This document shows positions 4,300-13,767 of a DNA stretch of 23,058 nt, one piece after another (within the stretch, counting starts at the first letter, position 1; each line of letters begins with the position of its first letter). The notes beneath the pieces were generated by a model. That model was given only the letters and a program-made list of their open reading frames with translations. It ran no database searches and was not told the origin of the DNA. The DNA comes from a virus. The position numbers and the translations under genes were made by a program. Location: positions 1 to 23,058 of the IMG/VR virus record IMGVR_UViG_3300037189_012269, one strand, 5' to 3'.

Positions 4300-7200
4300 T
4301 CATTGCCCAACCACCGATTTTGCAACGCCGTACAAGTCGCGCGCCAAGTGGCTGATCGATGCCGCGGCACTCACGGTATCATTTGATACCGCAAAGCCTG
4401 ACAATAACGCTTCCACGTCTTTGAATACGCCATCGGCATCACGGGTGCCATCAAACCAATCTGGAACTCTGCCAACTGCTTGAGCCGCCTGACCGACACT
4501 GGAGAAGATATTTCCCTCAATCGAGTAGGTGCCCGTCGCTTTGTAGATTGCGCCTTGAATCAAATCACCCAAGATCGGCAAACCTTGGAGAGGGCCGGTG
4601 AGCGTCGAGAGCGCTAGCCGCTTGGCATCCCAATTCTTGGCGTCAAGCAAGTCATCGTCATCCCCATCTCGCGCATCCTTCCATGCGGTACGGATCAAAG
4701 TGGCAATCATCCCTCCAACCAGCCAAGTAACGGCCACAGCACGCGCCTTGTCACCCATGCTGGCATCCTTGCTTGCCAGCGTGAACGCCGTGAGCCCCAG
4801 CTTCTGACGAGCTTCCGAGGCAAATGCCCAGGACAACTTCATGATGGCTGCAGCTCGGTTCTCAAACAACGAGCGGGCCCCCACGCGCGTCGGCTGCGCA
4901 ATCCGATCAGTGGCACGCTCGGCCGCCTGGTGAGCATAGGCGCTAGCCGCAGCCCCCGAAAGCCCGAGGTTCTTGGCCTGGCCAAGCTGGTAGTCGTAGA
5001 TCATGGCGTAGGATCCCGCGGTGAAGAGCGCATCAGCCCCACCGATAAGCCGGCCAAGTTTCGCGACGGCATGTTTCAGCTGGTTGGGCTCTGAGGCTTT
5101 CAGGCCATCCATTGCCAGGCGAACCACCACCGGCATTTCTGCCAAGCGCCGTTGGATGTAGGGAGACGCGAGTGCCTGTCTCCAGCCGAGGTTGCCAGTC
5201 ATCAGCGCACCCAGCCGCTTGAGGTAGGACGCAGTGGGCATTTCTGCAAGGGCCGCACCCAGCTGAGTCGATTGAATTGCCAGGACCCCGGCACGCCCGA
5301 CAAGAATCGCCGATGCAGCGCGACCGGCCATCCGGTTAAGCCCTTGGTTGAGCGCCAGGTGCGATCCCGCATCACGGGTGCCGCCGGTGGCAAAGTCCTC
5401 AATCCAGTTGCGGATGACCTTCATGCCCTGGTCGCCGGCCTTGGCTTCCATCGAGTTCCCGACATCGCGGGAATTCACCAATGCCAGTGCCTCCTTACCA
5501 AATGCACCGTAGGCAATGAAGTGTTCCATCTGCTTGGCGTGAGCAATGAAGACCTGGTGAGCATCCTTGAAGAGTGGCTCAGCAATCGCATCCTGGGAGC
5601 GGGTGCGCAGGCTGCCTGGAGTCATCGACCCACTGGACATGCCGAAGCCGGTCAGCGGATCGGAAACTTGACCAGCCGCGGCGCTTACCGGAGCAACCGT
5701 GAGAGGAGAATAGAACTTGTGCCGTGGCATGTTGACCCCGTAAAGCTGCACAAACACCGCGTTGATTCGGTCGTACTCACGGCTGTATTCATCGATGAAA
5801 TGTGCACGGATTGCCTTGGCCTCATTCGAGAGCAGGGTTTCAAGCTGGTCCATGTCCTTCTGCTCGTAACGCCAAGAGCCGTTGGGATTGCCGTTTTCAT
5901 CGACATGGCCAAGCATGTGGCGCTTGCCGTCTTCCTGCCTCCACATAAGCGTTGCGGTGATCGCCTCCATTGGGCTGAGGGTCCGCCCTGCCCAGGAGAT
6001 TGTTTTCTGGGACATCTCCCAGGCCAGCTTTTCCGCCTTGTAGCGGCTACCGGCAAGCTGGAGGAACAAGTCATCAAGCGCATCAAACTTGGCCTGCATC
6101 GCATCTGACTTGGCATAAGCCGCGGCGCGCTCGAGATCCACCAGGCGATTACCCTCCGCGGACTTTGAGCCGAAGACGTAGTGCACTGCCTGCTCAAAAC
6201 TACCCAAGCCAAGGACGATGTTCTTCCAACCACCTTTGAGATTATTGTCATCCAGGATTTTCTGATCGCGCTCAGCCGCGGTGCCCGCCTTGCCGGTATC
6301 CTGTTGTAATGAGTCGCGAGAATTGCGCAGGCGCTCACGCTGACGTGACAATTCAATCGTGCGCATCTGGTAGCCACTGAAAAAGATCCGGGTTGCTTCC
6401 AATAAAGCAGCTTCGCGCCGCGCGGCATCGGCATTGGCCCAGTTGCCGGCCAAGGACACGAGCCCCGCCTGCAGCGTCAAATGCGCCTCATCCTTTGCGG
6501 TCGTAGCCACATTGCTTGCCAGGGATTCCAGGCGGAACACCTCAGCTTCCACTTCAGGTCCGGTCATTGTCATCGATGCCTCAACCGAGCGGAAGAGGTC
6601 ATGAACATCCGCGCCGATTTTTCCGAGCGGCTTCTGACCAGCCTCATCCTTTTGCGGACGCGTGCGCTTGAGCAGGTCGCGAAACTCCTTGTCATACTGC
6701 GTCTTCATCCAGCGCTCCAATTCATTGTCGGCCTTGGCCAGCTTATCGCGGAGATAGGCCAGGCGCGTCTCATCCGATCCCAGCTGAGCAATGGCCGTGT
6801 AACCACCGATCCTGCCCCTGATCTCCGGTGGAAGCGCCATCAGAATCGCATCCAAGGATCGGAGCGCCCGCAGCACTTCCTGCTTGGGCGAGTAGTTATT
6901 TTCCTGGGCAACCGTCTGAGTGGCAAGCCAAGCATTGGTTTCCTCGCGGGCCGTAATGCGCGCCTGCTTGATGTCCGCAAGCGCCCCCTTCATCGCCTCC
7001 TTCATCTTGGCCACCATGTTCTGCTCCTTGATCAGCAGCTCCCACATCGCGTCCGGGGTTGGCTCACTGATCAGATTATTGTCGTACATCTCCTGCGCCG
7101 CCTGGTCAGGCATCAGCTGCCCGCCAAAGACGGAGCGTGAAATTCCATCCGACCCATCGTAGTCGCCCGCGCGGTGAAGCTGGAACATGTTGGGATGTTT

Positions 7201-10200
7201 CTTGAGCGCCGCGGACTTGGACATGAGTCGCCCGCGTAGATTGGAATCTGGATCAGAAAGGTATTCATGGCCTGGCTGGCTCTTGAGCTTTACCAGGTCA
7301 TCATTGGACAGAATCCCATAGTGGTTGCCATACGCGATCATCTCGAGCTCCTGCGTCCGCTGAGCCTCACGCATCGCTGCCTCCTTCGCCAATGACTTCT
7401 TCGTGCGCTTGGCACCGGCCAACAACTCAAATCGCTCCGCTTCGATGCGCAGAGCATTAAATGACTTCGAGATTTTACTCATCGCCTGGGCGCGCCGAAT
7501 TGGATCCTTCACGCGGGCCAGCGCATCGCCGGCCATCAGGTCGCTCAATCTGGCATTACCTAGCGAGAAAGCGGGAGAACCTTCTTGGATTCTCTCACCC
7601 TGCGCATTTTCGCCCCCAAAAAACCGTTGTCCTTGATTGGCATCTGGATAGGTAAACATTCCGCTTTCCACTCCTGAAATATTCATCGGCTGCAAGTTAT
7701 CTCCCGACGCCTCGATCACCATTTCAGAAACCATGAACTTCTGATTCATTGGCTGAAACCGTTTAAGAATCGCTTCCGCCGCTTTTCGGTCACTTGCTTT
7801 AGCGTGCAAAAATAAGTGAGTCCCGCCTTGGCCACGTCCGAAATCTTGGATTTCCTGCGGTGTCAGACTCAAAAAGTCGGATTCTTTGCCAACCATCGTC
7901 GCCACCACCTTCAACTTCGCATTGACCATGATGCCGACAATCGCGTCATTCTCCGCCTTGGATAATTCTAAGGCTTGTGCTAGATTAACAATTTCGTCCG
8001 GCGAGGAAATCTGAATATCTTCCAAGTTCCATGAGGCTTGCGGCGCAAAACCGTCAGCGGCACCCGTGGCATTTTTCAACTTTATCTTGGAATTCACCAC
8101 GCCGTAGCTGTCGATTGATGAATACGTTTCGTGGTTGATGACAATATGATCCAGCAACTTAAACCCTCGATTCTCCATTTCCTGAGCGTGACGCATGGTT
8201 ATGCGTAAATCCGCGCCAGACGGCGTTGGATCACCGCTTGGGTGATTGTGAATCAACACATAATGAGTCGCTCCAGCATTGCGCAGAAACTCGACATGAT
8301 CTTCCATGCCATTTACAAAAGTTTTTCCGCCTTCAAACACTTGGGCACAGCATGGCACCCGGCTTGTGACTGCCATGGCTTTGACCACTTGATGGCCTGG
8401 ACCGCCTTTGTGGCGCTTCGTCCGTGGCTTCATCGCCAACAGATAAAACGTCTCAAACATCGGATTGCGAAGTGCCATTGCCTTCGTCGCAAGGTCGTCT
8501 TGGCTTTGAATCGTTTCCCCGAGAAATCGAACTTCCAGATTTACCGCAATTCCCTGGGCAAGCCTTTGACGAAGCACTTGTACGCTGGCGAGTCGTCCGG
8601 CATCGCGCCGGCTTGGAGCTTGCGTTTCACCACCTTCTTCTTGCCCAATGATGGAGGCTGAGAAGTCAAAGATGAGTTGGCGTTTGTCTTCATAAGAAAC
8701 CTTAGGTTGCTCTAAACGTAGTTCATCTCCCCCGATCCTGTCAAGAAGCGACTCGTGAAATGAGCCAATGGAGAAAGCAAACGAACCTTGGCTTAGTCCG
8801 TTTCCGCCCAATACCTCGCCAGTGCTTTCTCCGCCACCTCGTAACGGGTTCGAATACGCTCCTGCACGTCGGCCGGAAGATGCGATATCGATAAGCTTGG
8901 CGCTGTTTTCGGCGTTGCGACGGGTGTTGCTCCGGCTGACTTCGGCTTCGGCTTTGTTGAAGAGTTGCTTGAAGGTGCCATCAAAAAGAGAATGCATCGC
9001 TGGCAGCACTTCGTCAAGGCCTTTGCCGGTGCCGCCGGCATCCACTTCCTGAAAGGTTTTCTCAATTAAAGAATGCGCTGCATTTCCAATGGAGAATGCA
9101 CTTAATCCTGCTTCGCCAGTTCCCGATCCATCCATTCCGCCGCCTCGCGCATCTCCTTCCGCAATGATTCGATCTCGGACGGTGTTAGCCGGTTTGAATT
9201 TGACGAGGGTGCGAGCTTCGGATTCGGTGAGGTAATCAAATCCGTAGCCGGTTGCTCGACGGAAGTCATCTTCGACATCGCTGAATTTGGCTCGGAGTTG
9301 ATCGAGTAAGTCTTCACTGAGATTTAGCTTAGCGCTGTATTGCTTTCCGGTCAACGCAAGACTCCCGATTACCTCACCGCCACTGCTGCGGATGTGATCC
9401 GCCAAGGCAGCAAATGTGCCGCCTTGGGTAAGCGTGTCATCTACCAAGAAATAAGACTGGCCTGCCTTTACCTGGCCATCAAAGGTTGGCTGAGAAAATA
9501 TCCGATCTAATCCGGTTTTTCCTCCCCTGTATGCTCGTACCGACTGGATAATCTCTGCATCAACATCGAGCCAGAGCGATTTGCCGAGAGCTTTAGCTAC
9601 CGCTAGAGGAATCCGATTGCGGCCAGATTCCTCAATCGCCAGCACTGGCACGATCAACGGCTTGCGGCCGCCAATGGATGCGCGAACTTTTTCAATTATT
9701 TCGGGAGTCACGAGATCCTTGGCTAGTCGCAGCGCCGCAACGGAATCGCCACCCTTCGCTGCAGTGTAGTCTGGATGATTAGCTGTTGCACCCAAGTCGT
9801 GTGCCACAATGCTATCAGCCAGTGATACAGGGAATGAACGCCCAATCGAAAATGCGGGTTCGCTAAGATTAACCGGATTACCGTTCGCCTCGGTGATCTT
9901 GATCTTGGAATCATCAAACATCACATAGTTATGAGAAACGTCACCACGCAACGGCTCAATGCTCGCGAGCAATTCTTGGCTTGGCTCCCAGTTGCGAATC
10001 TTGTCGCTGAGCGCGGCTGAAATTGCCTGGGCTGGATACTCAAATCCAAGCCAGTCATCTGCCTCCAATGCACTCAAGAACCTTTCCTGATCGGAAGTAA
10101 ATGATCCATCGCCAATTGCCGTCTTCACATCCTCGATCTCCGCATCTTCAGGAAGAACGGAAAGGAATTGTTCTTTGATCTCCTGGATAGGTCGATTCCT

Positions 10201-13200
10201 GCTGTTTCCATCAAAATAGCGAATGCCTTGAATACCTACGCCATGAAGCACCCGTGATGCTCTTTCCTGGCTTCCAATCCCATCTGGAGAAAATTCTTTA
10301 TCTGGGAATGCTGCTGCCAAAAACTTGACCAAATTTCTTCCATCTAAGTCAGTCCTCGCCTTGGTTTCTTCCCATAGAGGCTGGTCAATTTTGATCGATG
10401 CAATCGCTGCCTTTACGAATTCGCTCTGTTCTGCCAGTGGTTTTTCCCAATCAATCAATTCACCTTGATCTACATTAAGTTCGACAGTGTAAAGATTGCC
10501 GCTTGGGGAATCTGCTAGCTGCTGAGCTTCTTTCGATGAATCAAATGGGCCATTGATCGCTTTGGGTCCATCCGTAACCCACCACTTCCCATCGCTGTCT
10601 TTAATGACCCCCAAGCTACGACCAGCCTTCATGTATCCCTTGGCCACGGCTTTCGCCTTTGCAAAATACAAGCCCCAGCCATACGCCTGCGCACCTTCGC
10701 CGGTTCCGATCTTGTCCAGACTGAACTGATCGACATCGTGCGGCGTGCCATGAAATGCACCAATCGAGAATGCCGCCGGCCCAATCACCGTGGATCCATC
10801 CGTGCCATTGAACACTTGAGTGCTGCCATTGGCCGTGACCGAGCTATTCCCAATCCTCGTCGGAATGGCTTGGCCAATGGAAAACGGATCACCTTCAGGG
10901 ATGCCTAGCAATTCACCGGCCTGCTGGCGGACCGCGGTATCATGCTCATCCTGCTGATCTACGCCCATCAGCTTTGCCAGGTAGGCATCATAGTTTCCCC
11001 GGTCGAACTCGCCATTCTTCTCCGCCTGCTTCATGGCAGCCACGCGGGACATCACGATCCCCATGCGCGCACGCAGCGCCTCCATAAAGGACTTCAGCTT
11101 GAACGCAGTCTTCTGGCCGGTGATCTGGCCGACAGCACCAATGTGGGCCGATACCACCGCCCGCGGCAGGTTAAACTTGTTCTTTCCATCTTTCGCAGTT
11201 CGGAAGATTTCCATCTGCGCAAGCTGGCCAATCGCCTCCTCAATTCGGACATCAGTCACGTCAGCATCCGCCATCCCCTCTGGGATGAATCGTACCGACT
11301 CGCTATCCTTGCGCTTGGATAACACCTCGTCAAAAGCACGCAGCAGCGCAATATCCTCTTCCCGGCTGATCAATCCCTTGGCCCGTGCAGCGCGCCATTT
11401 GCCGTGAATCGTCTCCTCGAGCAGCGTGCCAAGGTGGCCACCAGCAAAAATGGTATTCACATCCTGACGCAAACCATCACGAATCTCAGAAGTATGCTGA
11501 CCAAGAACATGCAAGGTCATTTCGCCCGTGCCGCCACCAGCCTCCTCGTGCAGCTTCAGTTCCTCCGCAATTCGTTCAGCCGCCTGTGGGCTCGTTGCAG
11601 CGGCTTCGCTAAGCGTGTAAAGTTTCCCGAGATCAAACACGTTCTCGTCACCCGTGGCCTTGGCAAGGATTTGCCCACTGAGCAGCATTGTTCCCATCTC
11701 GGCGATGTGATCGGCCCGCATGTTATCCAGCGCCGCGGTATGGCTACTGATGATCTGCTGCACCTCGGTGAGGTTTTTACCCCTGGCGATTTCCTCACCG
11801 GTTTCCCCATCATGCACGGCAAACATCCCGTCTGGCCGGGCAATGATTTTTGGGAATGCAAAACCAAGCGTTGCCGCCCGTTCCATTGCCAGGCGCTGCG
11901 CCTCGATCTGCCGGTTTAGCTCAGCCTGGGCAGCCACCGCCTCCGGGGATTCTGGCATGCGCTCCTGGGCATCAATCGCAGCCGCACCCGAATCCAAGCC
12001 CTTGGCAATGCCAGCCCGGATTTGCTGCGTCGATTCCACCGAGTAACCCGCCGCTGCCATCTGCAGATCAGTGGCACCCGCAAATACCTTCACTCGGGCA
12101 TCGCGGCCGGCAGCGCCAGGAATCCCCATCAACGCAAGTGGCATCACCATCGCAAACGCCTCGATATTCTCCTGCGCGTTTGGCATGATGATCTCGCCGG
12201 TGTCATGACCAAATGCCGCTGCGATCTCACGCACCCCAACATCAATGTAATTCTGCCCAATTTCCTGCAGCCCTGACTCCGTACCACCCGCCACAAACCG
12301 CGTGGCTCCGCGTAGGATCGGATTCTTTATTCGGTCCATGACGCCGGTAAGCGCCTTGTCGAAAAATGGCAACTGCCCTCTCAGAAGATGGGATCCTAGC
12401 ATTTCAGATCCAGTCTCGAGCGCCGCTCCAAAGAATGATGCTTGGCCTGCAAAATCCGATGCATCCTTATAATTTATCCCAGCCTCAGTTTGAGCCTGCA
12501 GCAGACTTTGATAATGGCTTTCCTTGAGACTCGAAAACAGCACCACCGCCGAATAGGGATTCGATGCCATCAGCGAAGTCGTTAAAGCGCCCGCCGTACC
12601 GTAGGCCATCGTTTCGCCGAGCTGACCCCACCAGCCATCAGAAACTTTCTTCACCGGGTCAAACTGACCTTCTCGAATGTTCTGCAACTTTTGCACGAAA
12701 TCCGCCTTGCGACGATATTCCGTAGGTCCATCCACTTGCGCGCTTGTATCCCAGCCACGAGGATCCAAAACCAAATCCACAATGTTGGTCTTTGCGTTCT
12801 GAGCCAACGTCTCGATGTCGCGACCGCTCTGCTTGGCGATGTTTGCAAAAAACTTTGGATGCTCCTCCTTGGGCACGCCTGACGCCATTACGGCGATGGC
12901 TTGCATGAACCCATCTCGCTCTTCCGGCTTGAGCTTGTCGTAAATTTCGAATGCCGTCCGCCGCGTCGACTTTTGATCGATGGCAGCTTTCGTTTGACCA
13001 TCATAGTCTAACCCATCGTTGACCAATCCCGCAGCAATTCCCACGAACTTGCCGGCACCCGACGCGTCCTGCCAAGATTTCCAGAGCTCGGTCACCTCGT
13101 CCTTGTAAGGAGCAATGGCGGCACGAGCGGCGCTTTCTGCCTGGTAATACACCTCGTGCAGGTCTGCATCCAATTCCTCAGAATAACCAGGCATCTTGCG

Positions 13201-13767
13201 GACTTCATCGCGAATGATCGCCCAATCCGCACGTGGATTTGATGGTTTGGTGAGGGCTAATGCCGCCGATGTCGCTGCCTGCCCCGTCACCATTTCAATC
13301 GCAATCCGCGTCCGGTCACGCCGCTGCGCATCTTTCACAATTTCCGCATGAAATGCCTCCTCGCTCTCGGCCCCGCGACCACCAAAATTTCGCTCCGCGG
13401 AAACTGCCATCGCCAGGTGGCGACCCAGTGGGCTCGGATCGATCGGCTCACCATCATTGTCCAAGTTCAAGAATGCATCGTTCGTCGCCTGGATCTGACC
13501 TTCTTGCGGAGTCTTGGCCCAGCTAAGATCCTGGTCCTTGTAATAACTCTCGGGATCAAGCGCTGCCTGGTCGATTTTCTGCCGGCTCGTCTTGCGCCAC
13601 TCCTGAACGGATTTCTGATATGCTTCCTCCTCCGCATCCCAGGGATTTACCCCAAAGGCTTTTGACATATCAAAAGAGTCGCTTTGCGGAATGCCAACGG
13701 GCGTAGGCTCGAGCGGCTGCGGATCTGCGGCGGTCATCTGACCGTTAGAATCAAGAGTGAGTGACAT
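4300..13767 (-). CDS. Giant polyvalent internal virion protein (gp16 position), multi-enzyme
   Basis: A 3155-residue protein probably packaged in the head and ejected into the host with the DNA. Seen in order: helical N-terminus (1-750); zincin-like region with E-E-T-I-H at 784-788; ADP-ribosyltransferase-like domain (1004-1300); phosphoribosyltransferase-like domain with V-D-D-T-L-T-Q-G-G at 1442-1450; orphan segment (1562-1663); RadC/JAB domain with H1840, H1842, S1850, D1853; JAB-like second domain (1912-2027); long helical region; membrane-like segment at about 3009-3027; acidic D-G-D-D-D-D patch after it. Six F-S-(I/L)-G motifs separate the modules. T7 gp16 is about 1300 residues, so this is more than twice as long, and I see no lytic transglycosylase motif. 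Such domain sets are known from the 'polyvalent proteins' of phages and conjugative elements, thought to act against host defences on entry. The start at 13767 follows the gp15-position gene by 19 bases with no Shine-Dalgarno. No frameshift is seen. Confidence 0.85.
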   Translation of the reverse strand: MSLTLDSNGQMTAADPQPLEPTPVGIPQSDSFDMSKAFGVNPWDAEEEAYQKSVQEWRKTSRQKIDQAALDPESYYKDQDLSWAKTPQEGQIQATNDAFLNLDNDGEPIDPSPLGRHLAMAVSAERNFGGRGAESEEAFHAEIVKDAQRRDRTRIAIEMVTGQAATSAALALTKPSNPRADWAIIRDEVRKMPGYSEELDADLHEVYYQAESAARAAIAPYKDEVTELWKSWQDASGAGKFVGIAAGLVNDGLDYDGQTKAAIDQKSTRRTAFEIYDKLKPEERDGFMQAIAVMASGVPKEEHPKFFANIAKQSGRDIETLAQNAKTNIVDLVLDPRGWDTSAQVDGPTEYRRKADFVQKLQNIREGQFDPVKKVSDGWWGQLGETMAYGTAGALTTSLMASNPYSAVVLFSSLKESHYQSLLQAQTEAGINYKDASDFAGQASFFGAALETGSEMLGSHLLRGQLPFFDKALTGVMDRIKNPILRGATRFVAGGTESGLQEIGQNYIDVGVREIAAAFGHDTGEIIMPNAQENIEAFAMVMPLALMGIPGAAGRDARVKVFAGATDLQMAAAGYSVESTQQIRAGIAKGLDSGAAAIDAQERMPESPEAVAAQAELNRQIEAQRLAMERAATLGFAFPKIIARPDGMFAVHDGETGEEIARGKNLTEVQQIISSHTAALDNMRADHIAEMGTMLLSGQILAKATGDENVFDLGKLYTLSEAAATSPQAAERIAEELKLHEEAGGGTGEMTLHVLGQHTSEIRDGLRQDVNTIFAGGHLGTLLEETIHGKWRAARAKGLISREEDIALLRAFDEVLSKRKDSESVRFIPEGMADADVTDVRIEEAIGQLAQMEIFRTAKDGKNKFNLPRAVVSAHIGAVGQITGQKTAFKLKSFMEALRARMGIVMSRVAAMKQAEKNGEFDRGNYDAYLAKLMGVDQQDEHDTAVRQQAGELLGIPEGDPFSIGQAIPTRIGNSSVTANGSTQVFNGTDGSTVIGPAAFSIGAFHGTPHDVDQFSLDKIGTGEGAQAYGWGLYFAKAKAVAKGYMKAGRSLGVIKDSDGKWWVTDGPKAINGPFDSSKEAQQLADSPSGNLYTVELNVDQGELIDWEKPLAEQSEFVKAAIASIKIDQPLWEETKARTDLDGRNLVKFLAAAFPDKEFSPDGIGSQERASRVLHGVGIQGIRYFDGNSRNRPIQEIKEQFLSVLPEDAEIEDVKTAIGDGSFTSDQERFLSALEADDWLGFEYPAQAISAALSDKIRNWEPSQELLASIEPLRGDVSHNYVMFDDSKIKITEANGNPVNLSEPAFSIGRSFPVSLADSIVAHDLGATANHPDYTAAKGGDSVAALRLAKDLVTPEIIEKVRASIGGRKPLIVPVLAIEESGRNRIPLAVAKALGKSLWLDVDAEIIQSVRAYRGGKTGLDRIFSQPTFDGQVKAGQSYFLVDDTLTQGGTFAALADHIRSSGGEVIGSLALTGKQYSAKLNLSEDLLDQLRAKFSDVEDDFRRATGYGFDYLTESEARTLVKFKPANTVRDRIIAEGDARGGGMDGSGTGEAGLSAFSIGNAAHSLIEKTFQEVDAGGTGKGLDEVLPAMHSLFDGTFKQLFNKAEAEVSRSNTRRNAENSAKLIDIASSGRRAGAYSNPLRGGGESTGEVLGGNGLSQGSFAFSIGSFHESLLDRIGGDELRLEQPKVSYEDKRQLIFDFSASIIGQEEGGETQAPSRRDAGRLASVQVLRQRLAQGIAVNLEVRFLGETIQSQDDLATKAMALRNPMFETFYLLAMKPRTKRHKGGPGHQVVKAMAVTSRVPCCAQVFEGGKTFVNGMEDHVEFLRNAGATHYVLIHNHPSGDPTPSGADLRITMRHAQEMENRGFKLLDHIVINHETYSSIDSYGVVNSKIKLKNATGAADGFAPQASWNLEDIQISSPDEIVNLAQALELSKAENDAIVGIMVNAKLKVVATMVGKESDFLSLTPQEIQDFGRGQGGTHLFLHAKASDRKAAEAILKRFQPMNQKFMVSEMVIEASGDNLQPMNISGVESGMFTYPDANQGQRFFGGENAQGERIQEGSPAFSLGNARLSDLMAGDALARVKDPIRRAQAMSKISKSFNALRIEAERFELLAGAKRTKKSLAKEAAMREAQRTQELEMIAYGNHYGILSNDDLVKLKSQPGHEYLSDPDSNLRGRLMSKSAALKKHPNMFQLHRAGDYDGSDGISRSVFGGQLMPDQAAQEMYDNNLISEPTPDAMWELLIKEQNMVAKMKEAMKGALADIKQARITAREETNAWLATQTVAQENNYSPKQEVLRALRSLDAILMALPPEIRGRIGGYTAIAQLGSDETRLAYLRDKLAKADNELERWMKTQYDKEFRDLLKRTRPQKDEAGQKPLGKIGADVHDLFRSVEASMTMTGPEVEAEVFRLESLASNVATTAKDEAHLTLQAGLVSLAGNWANADAARREAALLEATRIFFSGYQMRTIELSRQRERLRNSRDSLQQDTGKAGTAAERDQKILDDNNLKGGWKNIVLGLGSFEQAVHYVFGSKSAEGNRLVDLERAAAYAKSDAMQAKFDALDDLFLQLAGSRYKAEKLAWEMSQKTISWAGRTLSPMEAITATLMWRQEDGKRHMLGHVDENGNPNGSWRYEQKDMDQLETLLSNEAKAIRAHFIDEYSREYDRINAVFVQLYGVNMPRHKFYSPLTVAPVSAAAGQVSDPLTGFGMSSGSMTPGSLRTRSQDAIAEPLFKDAHQVFIAHAKQMEHFIAYGAFGKEALALVNSRDVGNSMEAKAGDQGMKVIRNWIEDFATGGTRDAGSHLALNQGLNRMAGRAASAILVGRAGVLAIQSTQLGAALAEMPTASYLKRLGALMTGNLGWRQALASPYIQRRLAEMPVVVRLAMDGLKASEPNQLKHAVAKLGRLIGGADALFTAGSYAMIYDYQLGQAKNLGLSGAAASAYAHQAAERATDRIAQPTRVGARSLFENRAAAIMKLSWAFASEARQKLGLTAFTLASKDASMGDKARAVAVTWLVGGMIATLIRTAWKDARDGDDDDLLDAKNWDAKRLALSTLTGPLQGLPILGDLIQGAIYKATGTYSIEGNIFSSVGQAAQAVGRVPDWFDGTRDADGVFKDVEALLSGFAVSNDTVSAAASISHLARDLYGVAKSVVGQ
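7687..8034 (-). other. Domain: probable decayed second JAB-like fold (residues 1912-2027)
   Basis: Directly after the active JAB domain, this stretch repeats its secondary-structure pattern: beta strands (A-I-V-G-I-M-V, K-V-V-A-T-M-V), a T-H-L-F-L-H-A-K-A-S-D-R segment (H at 1988) where the first copy has V-L-I-H-N-H-P-S-G, a helix, and M-V-S-E-M-V-I where the first has L-L-D-H-I-V-I. The zinc ligands are missing. Reading by pattern only. Confidence 0.35.
8071..8763 (-). other. Domain: RadC-like JAB metallopeptidase (residues 1669-1899)
   Basis: The JAMM zinc motif is intact: H1840-N-H1842, seven residues, S1850, two residues, D1853, followed by the RadC-type L-L-D-H-I-V-I strand. JAB domains are zinc isopeptidases or peptidases; RadC-type members are common in mobile elements, substrate unknown. 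A plausible catalytic Glu lies upstream in Q-V-F-E-G-G. Confidence 0.85.
8779..9084 (-). other. Domain: orphan module between two F-S-I-G motifs (residues 1562-1663)
   Basis: About 100 residues I do not recognise: a helical first half (L-I-E-K-T-F-Q-E-V-D ... L-F-N-K-A-E-A-E-V) and a glycine-rich second half. Its boundaries are set by the two flanking motifs. Confidence 0.5.
9118..9840 (-). other. Domain: phosphoribosyltransferase-like (residues 1310-1550)
   Basis: The segment Y-F-L-V-D-D-T-L-T-Q-G-G-T-F (D1443, D1444) matches the PRPP-binding signature of type I phosphoribosyltransferases (hydrophobic residues, D-D, then T-x-x-G-G/T). Members transfer between PRPP and a base or similar group; here the acceptor is unknown. 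Domains of this class are known in phage polyvalent proteins. Confidence 0.75.
9868..10758 (-). other. Domain: ADP-ribosyltransferase-like (residues 1004-1300)
   Basis: It begins F-H-G-T-P-H-D-V-D-Q-F (H1006) and continues G-T-G-E-G-A-Q-A-Y-G-W-G-L-Y-F-A (1021-1036), a block I associate with the ART-like domain common in phage polyvalent and MuF-type proteins. The end of the domain (V-M-F-D-D-S-K-I-K-I) also fits. If active it would modify a host target with ADP-ribose from NAD; target and catalytic Glu are not assigned. Confidence 0.7.
10888..11490 (-). other. Domain: degenerate zincin-like metalloprotease (residues about 760-960)
   Basis: L-L-E-E-T-I-H-G (782-789) sits where a zincin has HExxH, but the first His is Glu (E784-E785-x-x-H788). 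R-I-E-E-A-I (841-846) could supply the distal Glu ligand. Loss of one zinc ligand suggests an inactive or altered enzyme. Confidence 0.45.

Follow-up and report, generated by a model that had tools for sequence, protein, structure and literature searches.

Recurrent junction motif between modules of a giant phage protein suggests a polyprotein-like organization

A giant protein encoded by a viral contig carries six copies of a short F-S-(I/L)-G peptide next to its modules, and related proteins carry other short peptides in corresponding places, alike within one protein and different between proteins. Giant proteins of this type are probably injected into bacteria by phages. At about even odds (a probability of roughly 0.5), we read the motif as a signal that marks the junctions throughout an injected, polyprotein-like protein; its likeliest reader would be a protease cutting at those seams. 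The question bears on whether such proteins, once injected by a phage, work intact or as separate fragments.

Organization of the window protein

The window is the whole stretch of viral DNA that was analysed, positions 1–23,058 of IMG/VR record IMGVR_UViG_3300037189_012269, and the window protein is the 3155-residue product of its minus-strand open reading frame at 4300–13767. Since genes for tail tubular proteins A and B and for internal virion proteins adjoin it, the product is likely to be a virion protein that is delivered with the genome. The ADP-ribosyltransferase (ART), phosphoribosyltransferase (PRTase) and RadC/JAB modules all lie within this one phage reading frame, as in a polyvalent protein; the ART and PRTase assignments rest on Pfam matches below the cut-off together with homology. 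The features are as follows.

4300–13767, minus strand: polyvalent-type protein of 3155 residues in the gp16 (large internal virion protein) position (reading frame, gene order)
10903–11670, minus strand: zincin-like domain, degenerate, residues ~700–955 (alignment with relatives)
10873–10887, minus strand: copy 1, PFSIG, residues 961–965, after the zincin-like domain (FS aligned in relatives; predicted disordered)
10774–10872, minus strand: short segment conserved among relatives, lying between copies 1 and 2, residues 966–998 (predicted β-strands)
10759–10773, minus strand: copy 2, AFSIG, residues 999–1003, directly before ART strand 1 (predicted strand, pLDDT 85–91)
9868–10758, minus strand: ART-PolyVal-like module, residues 1004–1300 (PF18760 below the curated cut-off, homology)
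9841–9855, minus strand: copy 3, AFSIG, residues 1305–1309, ART/PRTase seam (predicted disordered)
9154–9831, minus strand: PRTase-like module, residues 1313–1538 (phrog_22413, 4.8e-70; PF00156 below the cut-off; homology)
9085–9099, minus strand: copy 4, AFSIG, residues 1557–1561, after the PRTase (sequence, PRTase comparison)
8764–8778, minus strand: copy 5, AFSIG, residues 1664–1668, before the JAB segment (sequence)
8107–8280, minus strand: RadC/JAB module core, residues 1830–1887, with HNHPSGDPTPSGAD intact (PF04002, 2.1e-14)
7558–7572, minus strand: copy 6, AFSLG, residues 2066–2070, before the conserved C-terminal part (sequence, relatives)
4303–7557, minus strand: conserved C-terminal part, residues 2071–3155 (common to L016, L033, L012, L025 and others)

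Elsewhere in the window, positions 331–825 encode a CHAP-like domain (below the Pfam cut-off), probably that of an endolysin.

An earlier note on this DNA had placed the six copies at residues 962, 1000, 1306, 1558, 1665 and 2067; these are exactly the positions of their phenylalanines, and no further copy occurs in the six reading frames. Composition alone predicts 0.10 occurrences of FS[IL]G in the protein, the maximum among 20,000 shuffles was three and the reverse pattern G[IL]SF is absent. The recognised domains lie between copies as the note had described (ART between copies 2 and 3, PRTase between 3 and 4, RadC/JAB between 5 and 6), and the segments 966–998 and 1562–1663 match no recognised domain in Pfam or PHROGs. 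The former (10774–10872) also occurs in relatives, with a conserved ...IGP. Two of the note's generalizations had to be narrowed. Its statement that the motif marks every module boundary is valid for the middle third of the protein, because no copy precedes residue 961 or follows residue 2070, and the five-residue form (A/P)-F-S-(I/L)-G describes the window protein, whereas relatives conserve the core [FY]-S-[ILMV]; the A/P before it and the G after it are a variant particular to the window protein.

An AlphaFold2 model built with 38 sequences (mean pLDDT 73.7) covers the copies at 962, 1000 and 1306. Those at 962 and 1306 fall in predicted disorder. That at 1000, directly before the ART, is predicted to lie within strand 1 of the ART module, which is at odds with a linker fully exposed at this seam. 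An earlier AlphaFold model of residues 700–1345 (mean pLDDT 58) gave no matches in a fold search of the PDB.

The junction motif among relatives

Relatives were gathered with an ART core alignment as the best 80 IMG/VR and best 80 genome loci (about 160, a selection rather than a census), which after removal of redundancy gave 87 large proteins (at least 1500 residues) and 38 short ones. An aromatic residue or L.Q occurs at positions −7 to −3 relative to the ART in 73 of the 87 large proteins versus four of the 38 short ones (p = 4e-15), with a peak at −5 (56/87 versus 4/38). The peptides in this place are FSIG, YSIA, FSIS, RFAV, LFQS, YYQP, LLAK and similar in large reading frames and G-I-K/R/T-A in short ones. 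The possibility that the motif is a piece of the ART domain was rejected, as it is absent from standalone ARTs.

The junction variant differs by protein: FSIG in the window protein and NYSI(G/A), RFAV, LLAK, FSRxG, TLFQ or RFQP elsewhere. Unbiased k-mer counts often place a protein's own junction peptide among its most over-represented peptides (NYSI, RFAV, LLAK, FMPAE, FSIG in L094, TLFQ, RFQP, FQR in MetMV, FSRxG). Further copies of the 4-mer preceding the ART, counted within the same protein, number 38 (in 19 proteins), compared with 4.2 and 3.3 for permuted partners (maxima of 19 and 11 in 5000 permutations); without the F-S family the count is still 22 versus 2.8, and recurrence is at the chance level for offsets further upstream and for short proteins. 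The motifs on the two sides of the ART agree in 19–23 of 83 proteins, about two being obtained by permutation. Recurrence and agreement both persist when the whole F-S family and near-identical junctions are left out. The regular expressions that define the junction classes were drawn up after inspection of the data; the permutation tests are not tuned to any class. Sites that are alike within a protein and variable between proteins, as in a polyprotein, are what this comparison yielded. One relative of 5409 residues (L017) combines two ART copies with a JAB domain; several of its seams carry LLAK.

Module gain, loss and exchange at the motif

The earlier note had proposed looking in relatives for F-S-x-G at domain edges whatever the domains present, and this is where it was found. 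Recurrent motif copies coincide with the edges of homology blocks (BLASTP block starts or ends) in 29 of 46 cases. Randomly placed sites give 9.9 such cases and control sites sharing the dipeptide give 15.1; a consensus repeated at module boundaries is what would be expected of a polyprotein. In relatives of the window protein the end of the ART (...NYVIFDEN...EENG) leads into [FY]S and then into unrelated modules, among them a PRTase, a GNAT-like domain, a second ART and the C-terminal part.

The relative L016 corresponds to the window protein minus residues 1311–2063; in its ...ETAFSVGWSGLADAL... the sequence to the left of the motif is as at copy 3 and that to the right as at copy 6. A second pair of empty and occupied sites is provided by L033 (GETFSLRPGDFAARMEAKF) and L038 (GETFSL-module-TTFSIR-module-ITYSIRPGDFSARMEAKF), and in both pairs the empty site is marked by a single motif copy. 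An extra ART stands between YSIG copies in L024 and is missing from L012. Comparison of relatives thus bears out module exchange at the motif, which forms part of the second reading offered in the earlier note. The PRTase that stands between FSIG copies in the window protein recurs in L105 with FSRAG and in L099 with TLFQ on its flanks, and in a Moraxella MuF-PRTase protein without a flanking motif. A scan of viral contigs for the PRTase found no relatives. In Moraxella phage Mcat8, a 'coat protein' (L002:7999-9738) appears to be a MuF-like head protein fused to the same PRTase module, with no junction motif.

The note had also taken synonymous variation among the copies as a sign of selection on the peptide. 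The variation is real, but codon identity between copies exceeds expectation (210/370 versus 166 expected from codon usage; 88 copy pairs in 22 proteins), so part of the likeness is due to common descent at the DNA level. A DNA-level repeat or target-site duplication was rejected, as synonymous sites mostly differ despite this excess.

The zincin domain and the Q class

The zincin-like domain of the window protein reads EETIH at residues 784–788 (11404–11418), where the relatives L014, L016 and L094 have HExxH, and so lacks the signature of zincin MPTases. HExxH has been lost from the window protein and about ten relatives, all of which retain the motif; the domain looks catalytically dead in the window protein, and cutting in cis by the zincin was rejected for this family. 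The losses in the window family form a stepwise pseudopeptidase series (VHERTH, IHETVE, REEIHH, VEEIAE, MRDFSQ).

An independent set was assembled from the best 80 loci picked on the zincin core alone, with a smaller alignment as the query because the first was too diverse, and comprises 61 non-redundant reading frames, most without an ART. Before the zincin, 60 of the 61 carry Phi-x-Q and 14 the reversed pattern; the motif is most often followed by G and stands after very different upstream modules. Over whole proteins of this set, enrichment of [FY]xQ[GSAPN] is not convincing (188 forward versus 175 reverse; 141 versus 99 for a narrower pattern), and the seam before the zincin is therefore the one firmly established here. 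Taken with the PRTase, which carries FSIG, FSRAG or TLFQ according to the protein it sits in, this near-constant Phi-x-Q indicates from sequence comparison that the motif belongs to the protein and not to the module.

Within the ART set, the zincin is of the ST..HExxH type in 20 of 21 Q-class proteins, against 15 of the remaining 66 (Fisher, 2e-9). On an ART tree, Q motif and zincin type are scattered (15 and 17 changes), and the three supported independent pairs leave this comparison underpowered; the link may reflect shared descent.

Interpretation of the motif

In viral polyproteins, as at picornavirus 3C sites, a single consensus recurs at the seams; each virus keeps its own, and it differs from one virus to another. 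The phage proteins share the repeated seam consensus, and some of their variants (LFQ/G) resemble 3C sites; the phage case differs in being known from sequence alone, and the resemblance is not a claim of relatedness. Copies that stay alike within a protein despite module exchange, and differ between proteins, point to one reader of all copies, and a single such partner would keep them alike. The likeliest partner would be a protease that cuts the seams at Phi-x-[Q or I/L/M]/small residue and frees the modules, acting in the head or after ejection. For the Phi-x-Q class the protein's own zincin domain is the candidate cutter; for the F-S class it would be another phage or host protease, necessarily acting in trans as the in-cis domain looks dead. 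The JAB domain, which the earlier note had suggested as a cutter, is not a general one, being absent from 17 F-S motif-bearing relatives. The note's first reading, a processing site, gains from the single variant per protein, the absence of the motif from standalone domains and the predicted disorder of two of three modelled copies; it falls short of demonstration, and the loss of HExxH in cis, the 17 relatives without JAB and the partial common descent hold our estimate at even odds. Rather more tentatively, and at somewhat under an even chance, phage polyvalent proteins may be true polyproteins, cut at every seam, with a protein-specific junction code that co-evolves with the peptidase. One injected chain would then yield separate effectors, and any module could be added between two copies of the code.

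The same likeness within proteins and drift between them, together with retention of the motif after loss of HExxH, would follow if each copy were a docking or packaging signal, bound but uncut by one hypothetical partner (an ejection-channel protein, a scaffold, a chaperone or the dead zincin-like domain itself) that, for example, threads the chain module by module. A copy predicted as a structured strand suits such binding, but a docking signal need not occupy nearly every seam, directly beside folded modules, and we regard this as unlikely, though worth serious consideration. For the F-S class, where the motif stays although the in-cis domain of the window protein has lost HExxH, either a trans protease or a docking role may apply. 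That modules are swapped exactly at the copies, and that their codons agree beyond expectation, would also suit a linker kept solely by recombination through it, its copies descended from one another and functionless in the finished protein. Most copies differ synonymously, however, and the DNA they have in common is too little to support homologous recombination. Modules that are not homologous and come from proteins with other motifs acquire the resident one, and exchange alone could not hold the peptide constant against drift, all of which makes this improbable. It is more doubtful still, and very unlikely, that the motif simply forms the opening strand of each module's fold or caps it. In favour are the predicted continuation of copy 2 into ART strand 1 and the isoleucine at −3, which recurs in standalone ART; against it, the folds that follow the motif are unrelated (PRTase, GNAT-like domain, second ART, C-terminal part), and neither standalone ART nor the Moraxella MuF-PRTase protein has the motif.

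Relation to known systems

Polyvalent proteins have been described from phages and conjugative elements (Iyer et al., 2017; PMC5512222). In that paper self-cleavage by the zincin is proposed and P1 DdrB is reported to be processed; the N4 virion RNA polymerase, which has a related peptidase domain, is packaged without being cleaved, and this last case counts against the processing reading. The proteins described there resemble the window protein in size, in combining ART-PolyVal and JAB, in lying beside genes for internal virion proteins and in having zincin MPTase domains; the window protein differs in that its zincin-like domain lacks HExxH. A search of that paper's text found no inter-module junction motif, and no mention of such a motif or of a junction code came up in the literature searched. 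Polyvalent proteins and the idea of zincin autoproteolysis are thus already known, and the junction code is without a report in those texts. In P1, the injected internal head protein DarA is trimmed once, N-terminally, by the phage protease Pro (PMC12810830, PMC9024508), a case alike in that a phage protease trims an injected protein and different in its one N-terminal cut without repeated seam sites.

A protein's own junction motif could serve to locate its module edges, and hence modules not previously known, from its sequence alone, and exact predicted seam sites are available for many proteins, including those of cultivable phages. A hand-written consensus query led to giant proteins of Bordetella phage BPP-1 (Bbp10), Caulobacter phage Jess A, Pseudomonas phage AF and Cobetia phage Carin1, which share gene position and order with the window protein and have Phi-x-Q before the zincin; they belong to the Phi-x-Q class with HExxH intact, whereas the window protein is of the F-S class. 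Because these phages can be cultivated, the processing question is testable. In Bbp10, FDQ at 606 and FYQG at 766 flank an upstream segment. The annotation of Bbp10 (L252:5712-11870) is that of a crystallin beta/gamma motif protein; the protein is a giant one that bears a zincin. A Caulobacter phage giant protein annotated as a 'lysis protein' (L253:5649-11768) has a zincin and an LAQG junction.
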